From an uncultured Chitinophaga sp. (lineage in GTDB: Bacteria; Bacteroidota; Bacteroidia; Cytophagales; Cyclobacteriaceae), in the NCBI GenBank assembly GCA_902168205.1, contig CABHOK010000007.1, positions 62,001 through 126,000 on the forward strand: a stretch of DNA of 64,000 bases, given 5' to 3'. A program made the translations under genes and the position numbers. The notes below the pieces were generated by a model, which was not told the DNA's origin, made no database searches, and was given only the letters and a program-made list of their open reading frames with translations. Positions 4,816 through 7,948 of the stretch are shown piece after piece; position 1 is the first letter of the stretch; every line of letters starts with the position of its first letter.

Positions 4816-4924
4816 AATGCCTTTCAAATTTGGCCGCAATTAACCACCATCATTTTTAACAAACAAAACTCATTTTTAATTAAAACCTGAAGAATGGCAT
4901 CACGCTAATTTTAATGGAGAGGTC

Positions 4925-4955
4925 TTGCATCGTCCGGTTTTATCACTTTCCTTTG
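4925..4955 (+). promoter_or_regulatory. Candidate promoter for the TPP-controlled operon
   Basis: TTG at 4925-4927, a 20-bp spacer, then TTCCTTTG at 4948-4955. This is one mismatch from the Bacteroidota -7 consensus TAnnTTTG, with the expected spacing to the -33 TTG. It would start transcription just before the riboswitch. Placement rests only on consensus matching. Confidence 0.45.
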
Positions 4956-4965
4956 TCTCATAAGC

Positions 4966-5041
4966 GCATCGGGGTGCTGTGCAAAACGGCTGAGATTATA
5001 CCCGGGGAACCTGATCTGGCTAATACCAGCGAAGGGAATGC
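4966..5041 (+). promoter_or_regulatory. TPP riboswitch (THI element)
   Basis: The conserved TPP aptamer blocks appear in order: GGGGTGC (4971-4977), CTGAGA (4990-4995), ACCC, then ACCTGATCTGG...TAATACCAGCGAAGGGA up to 5037. The closing P1 helix is formed by GCAT (4966-4969) with ATGC (5038-5041). Thiamine pyrophosphate binding normally shuts down downstream expression, here probably through the terminator at 5080-5109. The genes controlled are the methyltransferase, the AIR-synthase-fold protein and the ThiE-like protein, probably with the Trm112-like gene. The identity of the aptamer is very secure. Confidence 0.96.
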
Positions 5042-5079
5042 ACAGCTTCGATTTCACTTTGCGCAGGCATACGATATTG

Positions 5080-5109
5080 AGCCGCATTCCTTTTGGGTGC
5101 GGCTTTTTT
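5080..5109 (+). terminator. Intrinsic terminator of the TPP riboswitch
   Basis: AGCCGCATTC (5080-5089) pairs with GGGTGCGGCT (5095-5104): 10 pairs, of which two are G-U. The loop is CTTTT, and a run of six T (5104-5109) overlaps the end of the stem. It lies 39 bases after the aptamer and 24 bases before the start of the first gene, the normal layout for riboswitch-controlled premature termination. Confidence 0.88.
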
Positions 5110-5132
5110 GTTGGATTTTAAACAAGCAAACA

Positions 5133-5834
5133 ATGTCTTTTAACCTCGTCACGCAAAATCTGAGATCCTGGCAGAACCGGAAAGAATGGTTCTTCAACCG
5201 CGAACATACCGACACGTATGAACTTTGGTACGAAGGACGCTACAAACGAGCCGAGATCTGGCAGAAGAAAATCATTGGCGATCTTCTTAAAAAAGATGAC
5301 CGCATCCACACGCTGCTCGAGTTCGGATGCGGCACGACACGCTTTACCCGCTGGTGGAAAGATATAGGTATAGAAGCCACGGGTGGCGACCTCTCTCCTT
5401 TTATGTTGGGACAAGGCGTGCAGTTGTTCAAAGGTGATTTAGTGTTGGCCGACTCACACCATATGCCCTTCAAAGACAACACGTTCGATGCCGTTGCCTT
5501 CATCACCACTTTCGAATATTATAAAGATCCTGTTAAAGTAATCCGCGAAGCAGCGCGTGTTGGCAAGCACGGCATTGTGTTCGGTATGATGAACCGTAAT
5601 TCACCTAAAGTAGTACGCAGGCGAGTACAGCAACTCTTCGGTAAAAATCCATTCTATGTAACAGCTAACTTCTACACGCCCAATACGTTAACCACGGTCA
5701 TCAAAGAAGCCCTGCAAGGTGAAGAATATACCCTTGAATGGAATTGTACCGGCCTGCCGGAGTGGTTCCCCGTACAACAATGGAAGGTTCCCTACGGAGA
5801 TTTTTTCGGCCTATACGTAAAGCTGAAACGCTAA
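5133..5834 (+). CDS. Class I SAM-dependent methyltransferase in a TPP-controlled operon
   Basis: 233 residues from the ATG at 5133. An in-frame ATG at 4914 is excluded because that extension would read through the riboswitch and its terminator. The SAM-binding motif I is LLEFGCGTTRFT (residues 61-72), followed by an acidic residue at the end of strand 2 (GGDLS, 84-88) and MPFKDNTFDAVAF (111-123). This is the usual methyltransferase_11 fold. The substrate is not evident. As the first gene behind a TPP riboswitch it should be used when thiamine is short, and the Trm112-like gene three positions downstream could encode an activator. Its role in thiamine metabolism is inference. Confidence 0.82.
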   Translation: MSFNLVTQNLRSWQNRKEWFFNREHTDTYELWYEGRYKRAEIWQKKIIGDLLKKDDRIHTLLEFGCGTTRFTRWWKDIGIEATGGDLSPFMLGQGVQLFKGDLVLADSHHMPFKDNTFDAVAFITTFEYYKDPVKVIREAARVGKHGIVFGMMNRNSPKVVRRRVQQLFGKNPFYVTANFYTPNTLTTVIKEALQGEEYTLEWNCTGLPEWFPVQQWKVPYGDFFGLYVKLKR

Positions 5835-5848
5835 GGTATATCCCCCTC

Positions 5849-5870
5849 AACACCAACACATCAACACGCA
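5849..5870 (+). repeat. Short CAACAC-rich intergenic tract resembling repeat arms elsewhere
   Basis: The gap between the methyltransferase and the next gene reads CAACACCAACACATCAACAC. It closely resembles one arm of the inverted repeat at 59989-60063. No matching second arm is present here. It may be a degenerate copy or chance. Confidence 0.3.
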
Positions 5871-5875
5871 CAAAA

Positions 5876-6934
5876 ATGGATTTCCCCGAAACCGGCAAGA
5901 TTCAAAACTCATTTTTCAAGGAAAAGGTGTTCCCGTTCTGCGGTGCCAAGCGAAGCGAAGTAGTTATCGGACCGGAGTATGGTGTAGATGTTTCCATCGT
6001 GAATCTCCCCAATGGACTGGCTATGGCTATGACGAGCGATCCGCTTTCGCTCATACCAACGCTGGGACTTCGTGAATCGGCCTGGCTCTCGGTTCAACTC
6101 ATGGCTAACGATATGGCCACCACCGGCTTTGCTCCACAGTATGCACAGTTTACGTTGAACCTCCCCACAACGCTTGGGGTACACGACTTTGAGCAGTACT
6201 GGCATTATATACATGAGTTCTGCAATCGCCTCGGCATTGCTATTACCGGAGGACACACCGGGCGATTTGAAGGTATAAACTCCACCATTGCCGGAGGTGG
6301 CACGATGATTACCGTAGCTCCGGGAGAACAGATCATTACCAGTAAAGGTGCTGAACCAGGCGATGTACTGATCATGACCAAAGAATGTGCGTTGATCGCT
6401 ACTTCCATCCTCGCGCTAAGCTTTCCGGAGACGGTGATAAAATCCTGTGGTTCTGATATTCAACAACGCGCAGCAAAATTGTTTTACGAAACCAGCGCTG
6501 TCGAAGCTGGTCTGGCCACAGGTGAGTTTCATCGGCATACACAGTCGGTTACAGCCATGCACGATGCTACCGAGGGTGGTGTACTCGGTGCTATATATGA
6601 ACTGGCGCATGCCTCCGGATGTGGTGTGGTAGTGAACGAGCCTGCTATACCTTTGGGTGAACCTCAGCAGAAGATCGGTGCCTTGTTCAACATTGACCCG
6701 CTATACTGTGTCGGAGCAGGCGCAATGATCATCACCGCCAAAGCAGATAAGGCACATCTTCTGGTCGAACATCTGGCAGCGAACAACGTGCGGGCTACTG
6801 TAATTGGTGCGGTCACGGCTCCATCGGAGGGATTGAAAATACATCGCGATCAGGAAGTTGTTGAGCTGCAACATCCGGGAGCCGATCCCTATTGGAGTGC
6901 ATTCTTTGACGCGTTCGGGAAAGGCTGGAAATAA
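5876..6934 (+). CDS. AIR-synthase-fold protein (HypE/ThiL-like) in the TPP operon
   Basis: 352 residues from the ATG at 5876. An earlier in-frame ATG at 5738 lies inside the methyltransferase gene. The PurM/HypE/ThiL superfamily is recognisable from SVQLMANDMATTGFAP (N-terminal domain) and from MHDATEGGVLGAIYELA, a signature of the HypE group. These proteins bind ATP and phosphorylate or activate a substrate. The C-terminus ends GKGWK and lacks the PRIC cysteine tail that HypE uses for cyanide-ligand synthesis, and no hydrogenase genes lie nearby, so HypE function is unlikely. Control by TPP suggests a kinase in thiamine synthesis or salvage, perhaps ThiL-like; this is inference. Confidence 0.75.
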   Translation: MDFPETGKIQNSFFKEKVFPFCGAKRSEVVIGPEYGVDVSIVNLPNGLAMAMTSDPLSLIPTLGLRESAWLSVQLMANDMATTGFAPQYAQFTLNLPTTLGVHDFEQYWHYIHEFCNRLGIAITGGHTGRFEGINSTIAGGGTMITVAPGEQIITSKGAEPGDVLIMTKECALIATSILALSFPETVIKSCGSDIQQRAAKLFYETSAVEAGLATGEFHRHTQSVTAMHDATEGGVLGAIYELAHASGCGVVVNEPAIPLGEPQQKIGALFNIDPLYCVGAGAMIITAKADKAHLLVEHLAANNVRATVIGAVTAPSEGLKIHRDQEVVELQHPGADPYWSAFFDAFGKGWK

Positions 6935-6945
6935 ACCAAAGGTAT

Positions 6946-7617
6946 ATGACAGTAAACGGTAAACTATATACTGAAACAATCGAAGACCTCCGCAGAAAGG
7001 TTAAAGGCGGAGTATACCTGGTGATTGATCCGCATGAAGGCATCGAAACCGTTCTGCCCAAAGTGAAAGCTGCATTGGCAGGTGGTGTAGATGTTCTCCA
7101 GATCTGGAATCATTGGCACAAAGGTCAGGATCAAAAAGCTTTCATTGACAGTATCACTACGCTGGCGCATGCCGTTGATGTGCCCGTACTTATCAACGAA
7201 GAATGGCACTGGCTCGAAAGCACCATGATTGATGGTGTACACTTCGATGCTATACCTGCCGATTGGGATACAAACCGTAATACCATAACAAGACCTTTCC
7301 TCACCGGTATAACCTGTGGCAATGACGAGACTCGCATCGATTGGGCTATACGCTTTGCCGACTATCTTTCTTTCTGTTCCATGTTCCCTTCGGCCTCGGC
7401 TGGTGTTTGTGAAATTGTTCGTCCGGAGGTAGTAGAAGAAACCAGGCGGCAAACCAATCTGCCCATTTTTGTTGCTGGAGGAATTACTCCGGCATCGATC
7501 AACACCCTGTTGCCTTTGGGTATAAACGGCGTTGCCGTGATCTCCGCGATATTAAAAGCAGACGACCCGGCACGCGCTGCACAAGACTTCAAGGAGGCGC
7601 TGACTCGTCCGCGATAA
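6946..7617 (+). CDS. Divergent ThiE-like thiamine-phosphate synthase family protein
   Basis: 223-residue TIM barrel of the ThiE/TenI family, 11 bp after the preceding gene. The frame of the family is preserved: GVDVLQ (47-52), DGVHF (96-100), VAGGIT (176-181), GVAVISAI (195-202). But residues that bind the pyrimidine pyrophosphate in ThiE are replaced. The usual QxREK reads QIWNH (52-56), so Arg and Lys become Trp and His. IND reads INE (83-85), and the PTxTK loop reads PSASA (148-152), losing the Lys. Either the reaction or the substrate probably differs from normal ThiE. The TPP riboswitch upstream ties it to thiamine. Confidence 0.78.
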   Translation: MTVNGKLYTETIEDLRRKVKGGVYLVIDPHEGIETVLPKVKAALAGGVDVLQIWNHWHKGQDQKAFIDSITTLAHAVDVPVLINEEWHWLESTMIDGVHFDAIPADWDTNRNTITRPFLTGITCGNDETRIDWAIRFADYLSFCSMFPSASAGVCEIVRPEVVEETRRQTNLPIFVAGGITPASINTLLPLGINGVAVISAILKADDPARAAQDFKEALTRPR

Positions 7618-7672
7618 AAATGTATTCCTCAGCCACTTATTAAAGCTGTTCAAACACAACAAATGAATCATC

Positions 7673-7948
7673 ATGAAAACTTCACTTCTTCATAAACTGG
7701 CCTGTCCTTTTGATAAGAACGATCTCGATCTGAAGATCATCCGCCAGGAAGGCGATACTATACTGGAAGGTATCTTTACCTGTACACATTGCAAGCGTTA
7801 CTACCCGATCATCTATGGTATACCTATTATGTCGCCTGACGAGTATCGCGAGAAATCGTTGGAACACCCGGTACTGCATCGCTGGGGGTTACAAATCGAC
7901 AACGACTCGCAGACTTTCAAACTTCTTGCCGCTGGTCAGGAAATCTAA
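7673..7948 (+). CDS. Trm112-like small zinc-ribbon protein
   Basis: 91 residues. The pattern LLHKLACPFDKNDL followed by FTCTHCKRYYPIIYGIPIM matches the bacterial Trm112/UPF0434 family. Cysteines are at 11, 37 and 40; the expected partner of Cys11 (CPxC) is Asp or absent, so a classical four-Cys site is not complete. Trm112 proteins in eukaryotes and archaea bind and activate SAM methyltransferases. Its presence 55 bp after the ThiE-like gene, in the same cluster as a methyltransferase, makes a partnership plausible but unproven. The gap holds no clear promoter or terminator. Confidence 0.75.
   Translation: MKTSLLHKLACPFDKNDLDLKIIRQEGDTILEGIFTCTHCKRYYPIIYGIPIMSPDEYREKSLEHPVLHRWGLQIDNDSQTFKLLAAGQEI

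Follow-up and report, generated by a model that had tools for sequence, protein, structure and literature searches.

A thiamine pyrophosphate riboswitch operon of Bacteroidota with an undescribed set of four enzymes

Among known arrangements, the nearest that was found to the locus reported here is the Paenibacillus bacimethrin/thiaminase I operon, which is reported to have a putative thiamine pyrophosphate (TPP) riboswitch, thiE and an S-adenosylmethionine (SAM)-dependent methyltransferase, together with thymidylate synthase, a nucleoside deoxyribosyltransferase, thiaminase I, ThiD and ThiM (PMC5627462). The locus in question lies in a stretch of 64,000 nucleotides from an uncultured Chitinophaga sp. 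(contig CABHOK010000007.1, positions 62,001 to 126,000), referred to as the window, and consists of a TPP riboswitch aptamer followed by a cassette of four genes. These encode a class I SAM-dependent methyltransferase (MT), an AIR-synthase-fold protein (AIR*), a ThiE/TenI-fold protein with an altered active site (ThiE*) and a Trm112-like protein. The likeness of the cassette to the bacimethrin operon is one of gene names, and the last five of the bacimethrin genes listed above are not among its four. The four-gene set is not described in the accessible parts of PMC3766115, PMC5613172, PMC2258182 and PMC5627462, nor was a description found among the titles and abstract openings of the literature searched, supplements and most subscription journals lying outside the search. 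We class the cassette as a thiamine operon of the TPP-riboswitch kind whose combination of enzymes has not been described.

Gene order across relatives indicates that the four genes are one tight operon that is maintained as a unit. A profile search with MT against one-per-species genomes returned 225 matches, and in the best 80 of these, which are biased towards close relatives, every locus carries all four genes, each as a single copy, with gene order and strand unchanged. A fairer test is to seek AIR* in 395 evenly drawn Bacteroidota genomes. It occurs in 13 of them, always above 500 bits and with no other match at an E-value of 1e-30, and the remaining three genes accompany it in all 13, although two of these carriers (the source genome and G010) were already known before the draw. 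The homologues are therefore not found apart, a possibility that the first-pass annotation had raised, and an oddity of one genome is dismissed by the recurrence of the unit in 80/80 and 13/13 loci. Within the order, a strong match was obtained in 6 of 118 genomes, with one more cut by a contig end, and the cassette is broken across contigs in G025 and G111. The gaps at the successive gene junctions are at most 20 bases, overlaps counted, in 78, 79 and 71 of 83 loci, and over these loci protein distances are correlated among the four (Mantel r 0.57-0.78), a result matched in none of 500 shuffles. From record titles and genus names, we take the carriers to include Cytophagales, Sphingobacteriales, Chitinophagales, Flavobacteriales and Sunxiuqinia; the MT matches include named strains of Runella, Pontibacter, Mucilaginibacter and Algoriphagus.

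No widely common fifth gene was seen within 6 kb of the 83 loci, with neighbour clusters judged from their representatives. The largest cluster, which has an ABC ATPase-like representative and mixed positions, is present at 22/83 loci and the next at 13. The idea of a hidden fifth gene was dismissed for this reason.

The aptamer is conserved along with the genes. RF00059 is the sole Rfam match at gathering score within the window, and a model built from five cassette aptamers, two of them from contigs that themselves contribute to the 80 loci, places an aptamer ahead of MT in 80/80 loci (54.9-93.5 bits). An aptamer also precedes the cassette in all 13 carriers of the even draw (57.7-93.4 bits). 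The set is thus nearly always behind a TPP riboswitch, which the first-pass annotation had proposed as a check, the sole exception being locus L040 of a further genome, G044. The helices of the aptamer covary: over 79 rows, both partners of a pair are changed in 279 cells where shuffles give 102.5, the covariation score is 0.326 against 0.115 in shuffles, and 91% of cells are paired, although the model used to fit these rows has the same structure, which favours that structure. Further pair types are not above the shuffled level (44 versus 42.9). A chance hairpin in place of a riboswitch is ruled out by the Rfam score and the covariation.

The annotated pairing of a TPP aptamer with a terminator ahead of the genes is borne out in the window by the Rfam match and a terminator-like hairpin (Table 1). 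Folding of the leader gives a z-score of -2.06, with 6 of 200 shuffles equally good, and four terminator-like sites were found in the region against 3.6 expected, the hairpin at 5079-5105 having the longest stem. A strict terminator scan was positive at 11 of 82 loci against 0.2 expected under mononucleotide shuffling, and since only this minority carries a strict terminator, the majority of relatives may use another expression platform; many are perhaps under translation control. The start of MT was set by its conserved N-terminus, the longest open reading frame opening at 4914, upstream of the aptamer.

Table 1. Positions of the cassette and its leader in the window, followed by elements noted at other loci
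Feature	Location	Strand	Evidence or remark
TPP riboswitch aptamer RF00059	4960-5054	+	Rfam covariance model, 76.9 bits vs gathering 54.3, E 2e-13
Terminator-like hairpin, probable expression platform	5079-5110	+	11-pair stem 5079-5105, then T-rich tail
MT, class I SAM-dependent methyltransferase, 233 aa	5133-5834	+	Methyltransf_11 64.8 bits, E 1e-17
AIR*, AIR-synthase-fold protein, 352 aa	5876-6934	+	Pfam AIRS 40.2, AIRS_C 71.1 bits
ThiE*, ThiE/TenI-fold protein, 223 aa, altered active site	6946-7617	+	TMP-TENI 97.1 bits, E 1e-27
Trm112-like protein, 91 aa, probable MT partner	7673-7948	+	Pfam Trm112p 27.3 bits vs gathering 22
Second ThiE-family protein	L201 3325-3957; L206 4705-5331		
TPP aptamer/PnuT-like/monooxygenase-like loci	L199 723-2480; L200 3223-4965; L202 652-2472; L209 7007-8702		
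SelD-like and rhodanese/selenouridine-synthase-like genes	L005 6617-8736		by eye
NMT1/THI5-like protein	L187 3058-3951		
Weak TPP-like element, source genome	L006 12053-12175	-	48.1 bits, below cut-off

The identities first proposed for the four proteins (a methyltransferase, an AIR-synthase fold, an altered ThiE and a Trm112-like protein) all agree with their Pfam domain matches, and none of the four reaches a cut-off among the listed NCBIfam families. ThiE* scores 103.7 bits against thiE (TIGR00693), for which the cut-off is 145.1, and its profile alignment to ThiE covers almost the whole chain. With ThiE (PF02581; 1g4t, 1g67, 3o16) it shares the fold family, Q57, H107, the G187-G188 loop and S209. 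The residue numbers used here are those of Bacillus subtilis ThiE, in which R59, K61, D93, D112 and the lysine of the TxTK motif bind hydroxymethylpyrimidine pyrophosphate (HMP-PP) and Mg. An audit of 83 members against nine canonical rows, with columns assigned by alignment and the TxTK lysine taken as the column labelled T158, found that R59 is replaced by W (81/83) or Y (2/83) and that none of the 83 retains K61, D112 or the TxTK lysine, K61 being mostly N or H and D112 mostly P. D93 survives in two and is N or E in 73. In canonical ThiE, R59, K61, N92, D93 and D112 are kept in 7/9 rows, the other two being gapped, and the lysine in 8/9. Q57, H107 and G187-G188 are kept in every ThiE* and S209 in 82/83, and C144, C155, D101 and T123 (window numbering) are invariant, so that ThiE* differs from ThiE also in possessing two invariant cysteines. 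ThiE* has thus lost residues for pyrophosphate and metal. This loss agrees with the absence of ThiD, which leaves no known source of HMP-PP to bind.

TenI, a thiazole tautomerase, is a relative of ThiE that makes no thiamine monophosphate (TMP). By profile, ThiE* matches TenI (1yad) at 53 bits, whereas its best match to a ThiE entry reaches 97, and we know of no TenI with a cysteine pair like that of ThiE* or with the four-gene context. Among plasmids, relatives of ThiE* were found in three records at 1e-10 (69-85 bits). A second ThiE-family protein is present outside the cassette in Pedobacter and Mucilaginibacter carriers (G126, G129), and several canonical active-site residues are missing from it.

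AIR* has the AIR-synthase fold in common with ThiL and HypE, but ThiL carries DDAA and GGDT motifs where AIR* has VDVS and GGHT. It scores 71 bits against thiL (TIGR01379; cut-off 184) and 73 against hypE (cut-off 252), and by score AIR* is predicted to be neither ThiL, HypE nor SelD. In a tree from which the rows thiL_L145, other_L016, other_L018 and other_L013 were omitted, the 17 cassette AIR* rows are one clade (99/99), with haloarchaeal proteins of uncharacterised function from Haloarcula and Halobacterium as its sister (99/97). Five ThiL rows form a clade (100/99) that excludes AIR*, three HypE rows and the SelD rows lie elsewhere, and uncharacterised AIR proteins make up more than one group; the deepest forks of this tree are weak (64/83), and some of its branches are long. 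The assignment to the AIR-synthase fold thus stands, with the correction that the tree groups AIR* with haloarchaeal proteins rather than with ThiL. The haloarchaeal proteins, annotated as AIR synthase family proteins, share GGHT and HDATEGG-type motifs with AIR* at 30-32% identity, but in the records seen the annotation beside them names no counterpart of MT, ThiE* or the Trm112-like protein. In the three Haloarcula plasmid records found, the sister of AIR* lies in divergent orientation next to two thiamine-transport genes, one annotated as thiamine-binding and the other as a thiamine ABC substrate-binding protein. In PHROGs, AIR* matches a family of unknown function (50.8 bits).

MT is by profile a generic class I methyltransferase, with Bud23-type entries among its weak PDB matches and a PHROGs methyltransferase family match of 45 bits; no plasmid relatives were found at 1e-20. 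Thirty-eight relatives are 69-97% identical to it, and it is by far the most conserved of the four proteins, with a mean identity of 79% against 54, 42 and 53% for the others. The Trm112-like protein scores 63.8 against NCBIfam Trm112_arch, below the cut-off of 77, and its closest solved relatives by profile are 6zxw_H and 6f5z_C, the latter of which we take to be a Haloferax protein. It matches the 60-residue core of archaeal-type Trm112 (NF038101; 6f5z), with PxDK and GIP motifs, and differs in having a CxxC motif, lacking in the aligned 6f5z, and a conserved PDEYRE...LE.P..W tail. Trm112 is an activator of translation-machinery methyltransferases, and genetic linkage suggests that the Trm112-like protein is probably the partner of MT.

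The source genome (7.3 Mb, 99.5% complete, 20 contigs) gave no match to ThiC, TenA, ThiM or TPK in profile searches. ThiD yielded a single partial match (24.3 bits, below cut-off) and ThiG three (21.5-25.7 bits), two of them above the cut-off of 23 and the best of them the ThiE* gene itself. The absence of thiC, thiD, thiG and tenA first noted for the window thus extends to the genome, with partial matches only for ThiD and ThiG. ThiE* is the sole ThiE-family protein of this genome, and a separate ThiL is encoded elsewhere in it (327.6 bits). Across 28 carriers, ThiL is above its cut-off in all, TPK is present in three, and ThiC, full-length ThiG, full-length ThiD and canonical ThiE (defined as >150 bits) are each found in one, which is G128 in every case. 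A full standard thi set, which the first-pass annotation had put forward, together with a mutant without thiamine phenotype, as a counter-indication, is accordingly limited to 1/28 carriers. TenA and full-length ThiM are present in 0/39 carriers, versus 4/5 chosen prototroph-like genomes for each, and the ThiM family yielded a partial match in the carrier G137, at 29 bits and above cut-off. As ThiL is above its cut-off in all 28 carriers, AIR* as a stand-in for an absent ThiL is ruled out.

Thirty-one non-carriers, hand-picked from the order-level draw, contain ThiC in 6, ThiG in 6, ThiD in 8, canonical ThiE in 8, TPK in 1 and ThiL in 30, the comparison of ThiC in 1/28 with 6/31 being a description and no test. 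Genomes of this group thus often lack thi genes, and some of them have the cassette in addition. ThiL itself is kept in 58/59 genomes, most of which are without canonical ThiE and TPK. The suggestion that the cassette replaces a missing TPK has no support, TPK being rare in carriers (3/28) and non-carriers (1/31) alike.

A further TPP aptamer stands ahead of a TonB-receptor-domain protein (Plug, barrel or both) in 25 of the 28 carriers, a count made up of 24 scanned carriers and the source genome. In G111 the site is cut by a contig end, and no TonB-receptor gene lies behind the fetched aptamer sites of G133 and G138. The TPP-switched TonB receptor in carriers fits with import. In the source genome, SelD-like and rhodanese/selenouridine-synthase-like genes adjoin this receptor, and in G062 it is followed by an NMT1/THI5-like protein, a possible binder of a pyrimidine precursor. 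Sphingobacteriaceae and Chitinophagaceae carriers have another TPP aptamer ahead of a PnuT-like protein of about 210 residues (PF04973; L200 scanned) and of an acyl-CoA-dehydrogenase-fold protein of about 362 residues that resembles flavin monooxygenases (HsaA-like, DszC-like; L199 and L200 scanned). A weak TPP-like element of the source genome has no same-strand gene behind it; such an element also occurs in L192, and a similar gene adjoins it in the source genome and in Ohtaekwangia.

The first-pass annotation had suggested an unknown branch of thiamine synthesis, salvage or repair, and on the sequence evidence a link of the cassette to thiamine is well supported by the conserved unit, by its TPP aptamers and by the rarity of a full standard thi set in carriers. 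The combination of TPP control, two thiamine-enzyme superfamilies and carriers that are mostly without a known pathway makes a thiamine role likely. The reading that we favour, with a probability of a little under one half (about 0.47), is that TPP would repress the operon and that its products would form a self-contained module for the salvage or repair of thiamine, feeding ThiL. Salvage or repair is preferred over de novo synthesis since a set of four enzymes is small for making two rings and since the TonB receptor is TPP-switched in most carriers. As TPP falls, transcription would continue past the terminator-like hairpin, and the four proteins would convert an imported thiamine-derived compound into thiamine phosphate, from which ThiL would make TPP. 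In the scheme that we infer for them, MT and the Trm112-like protein would act as a heterodimer that methylates the substrate, and AIR* would spend ATP on activating a carbonyl or phosphate oxygen, in the manner of PurM, HypE and ThiL. The phosphate site that ThiE* retains may hold a phosphorylated ligand of the thiazole type, and ThiE* would carry out the joining, exchange or rearrangement by means of its own cysteines, which would replace the pyrophosphate leaving group. That these parts amount to a new route to TMP without HMP-PP or ThiE chemistry, through methyl transfer, AIR-fold ATP activation and a cysteine-armed ThiE-fold barrel, is a tentative proposal of which we are more doubtful.

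Several observations weigh against a salvage or repair module. Thiamine salvage offers no evident task for a methyltransferase; the much slower evolution of MT than of its partners would suit a macromolecular target. At L040 of G044 the four genes are present but no aptamer is detectable even at an E-value of 10, and in G128 the cassette coexists with ThiC, ThiG, ThiD and canonical ThiE, all four of them together on a single contig. Few of the non-carriers have ThiC either, many cassette-free genomes likewise have no known source of TMP ahead of ThiL, and the TPP-switched TonB receptor is found in all three cassette-free genomes inspected. Neither the receptor nor the gap before ThiL is therefore special to carriers, and the presence of the receptor in non-carriers slightly lowers our confidence in salvage. 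Beyond the Bacteroidota, no thiamine neighbour of the AIR homologue was seen in one Halobacterium, two Haloferax and one Acaryochloris records, and by eye the open reading frames flanking the Acetoanaerobium homologue look unrelated.

Were the operon instead a de novo route, one or both halves of thiamine would be built from ordinary metabolites, with AIR* forming a ring at the expense of ATP and MT methylating, and the carriers would be prototrophs in spite of having no ThiC and ThiG. The AIR-synthase fold would suit this, as would an aptamer placed as it is at biosynthetic operons and the absence of ThiC and full-length ThiG from 27/28 carriers. We nevertheless consider such a route unlikely, as four genes make a small set for two ring systems, inspection by eye of the representatives of the 30 largest neighbour clusters showed neither a sulfur-carrier nor a radical enzyme, and the TPP-switched receptor in 25/28 carriers suggests uptake. 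It is less probable still that the operon mounts a TPP-sparing response. MT and the Trm112-like protein would then modify RNA or a protein, a small partner would be made or recycled by AIR* and ThiE*, and the cell would manage with little TPP instead of making more. The far better conservation of MT (79% versus 42-54%), its Bud23-type weak matches and the known activation of translation-machinery methyltransferases by Trm112 all lean this way, but two of the four genes come from thiamine-enzyme superfamilies, for which a stress response would have no need.

The bacimethrin operon provides the model for an antivitamin or thiamine analogue, in which a methylated pyrimidine would be made, joined to a thiazole and poison competitors when TPP is scarce. 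The elements shared by name are the putative TPP riboswitch, thiE and the SAM methyltransferase reported in PMC5627462. The remaining bacimethrin enzymes (thymidylate synthase, nucleoside deoxyribosyltransferase, thiaminase I, ThiD and ThiM) are, however, missing from the four genes, no neighbour cluster, judged from representatives, is common to more than 22/83 loci, full-length ThiD and ThiM are found in 1/28 and 0/39 carriers, respectively, and ThiE* has lost the pyrophosphate site, all of which makes an antivitamin operon highly improbable. We give equally little credence to the view that ThiE* and AIR* are fast-evolving forms of ThiE and ThiL with standard reactions. Their shared folds and scores (TMP-TENI 97 bits, thiL 71 bits) would allow this, but a ThiL that passes its curated cut-off coexists with AIR* in 28/28 carriers, AIR* falls outside the ThiL clade, and ThiE* is without the HMP-PP residues in genomes of which 27/28 yielded no full-length ThiD, the maker of HMP-PP.

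A thiamine salvage or repair module would bear on how these organisms are classified. Thiamine auxotrophy is called from the absence of ThiC, ThiG, ThiD and ThiE, and by that rule the carriers look auxotrophic. With so small a gene set and with named carrier strains, the question is directly testable. If the cassette does make or restore thiamine, ecological and microbiome studies would be wrong to count its carriers as auxotrophs, and its proteins would represent new enzyme chemistry.

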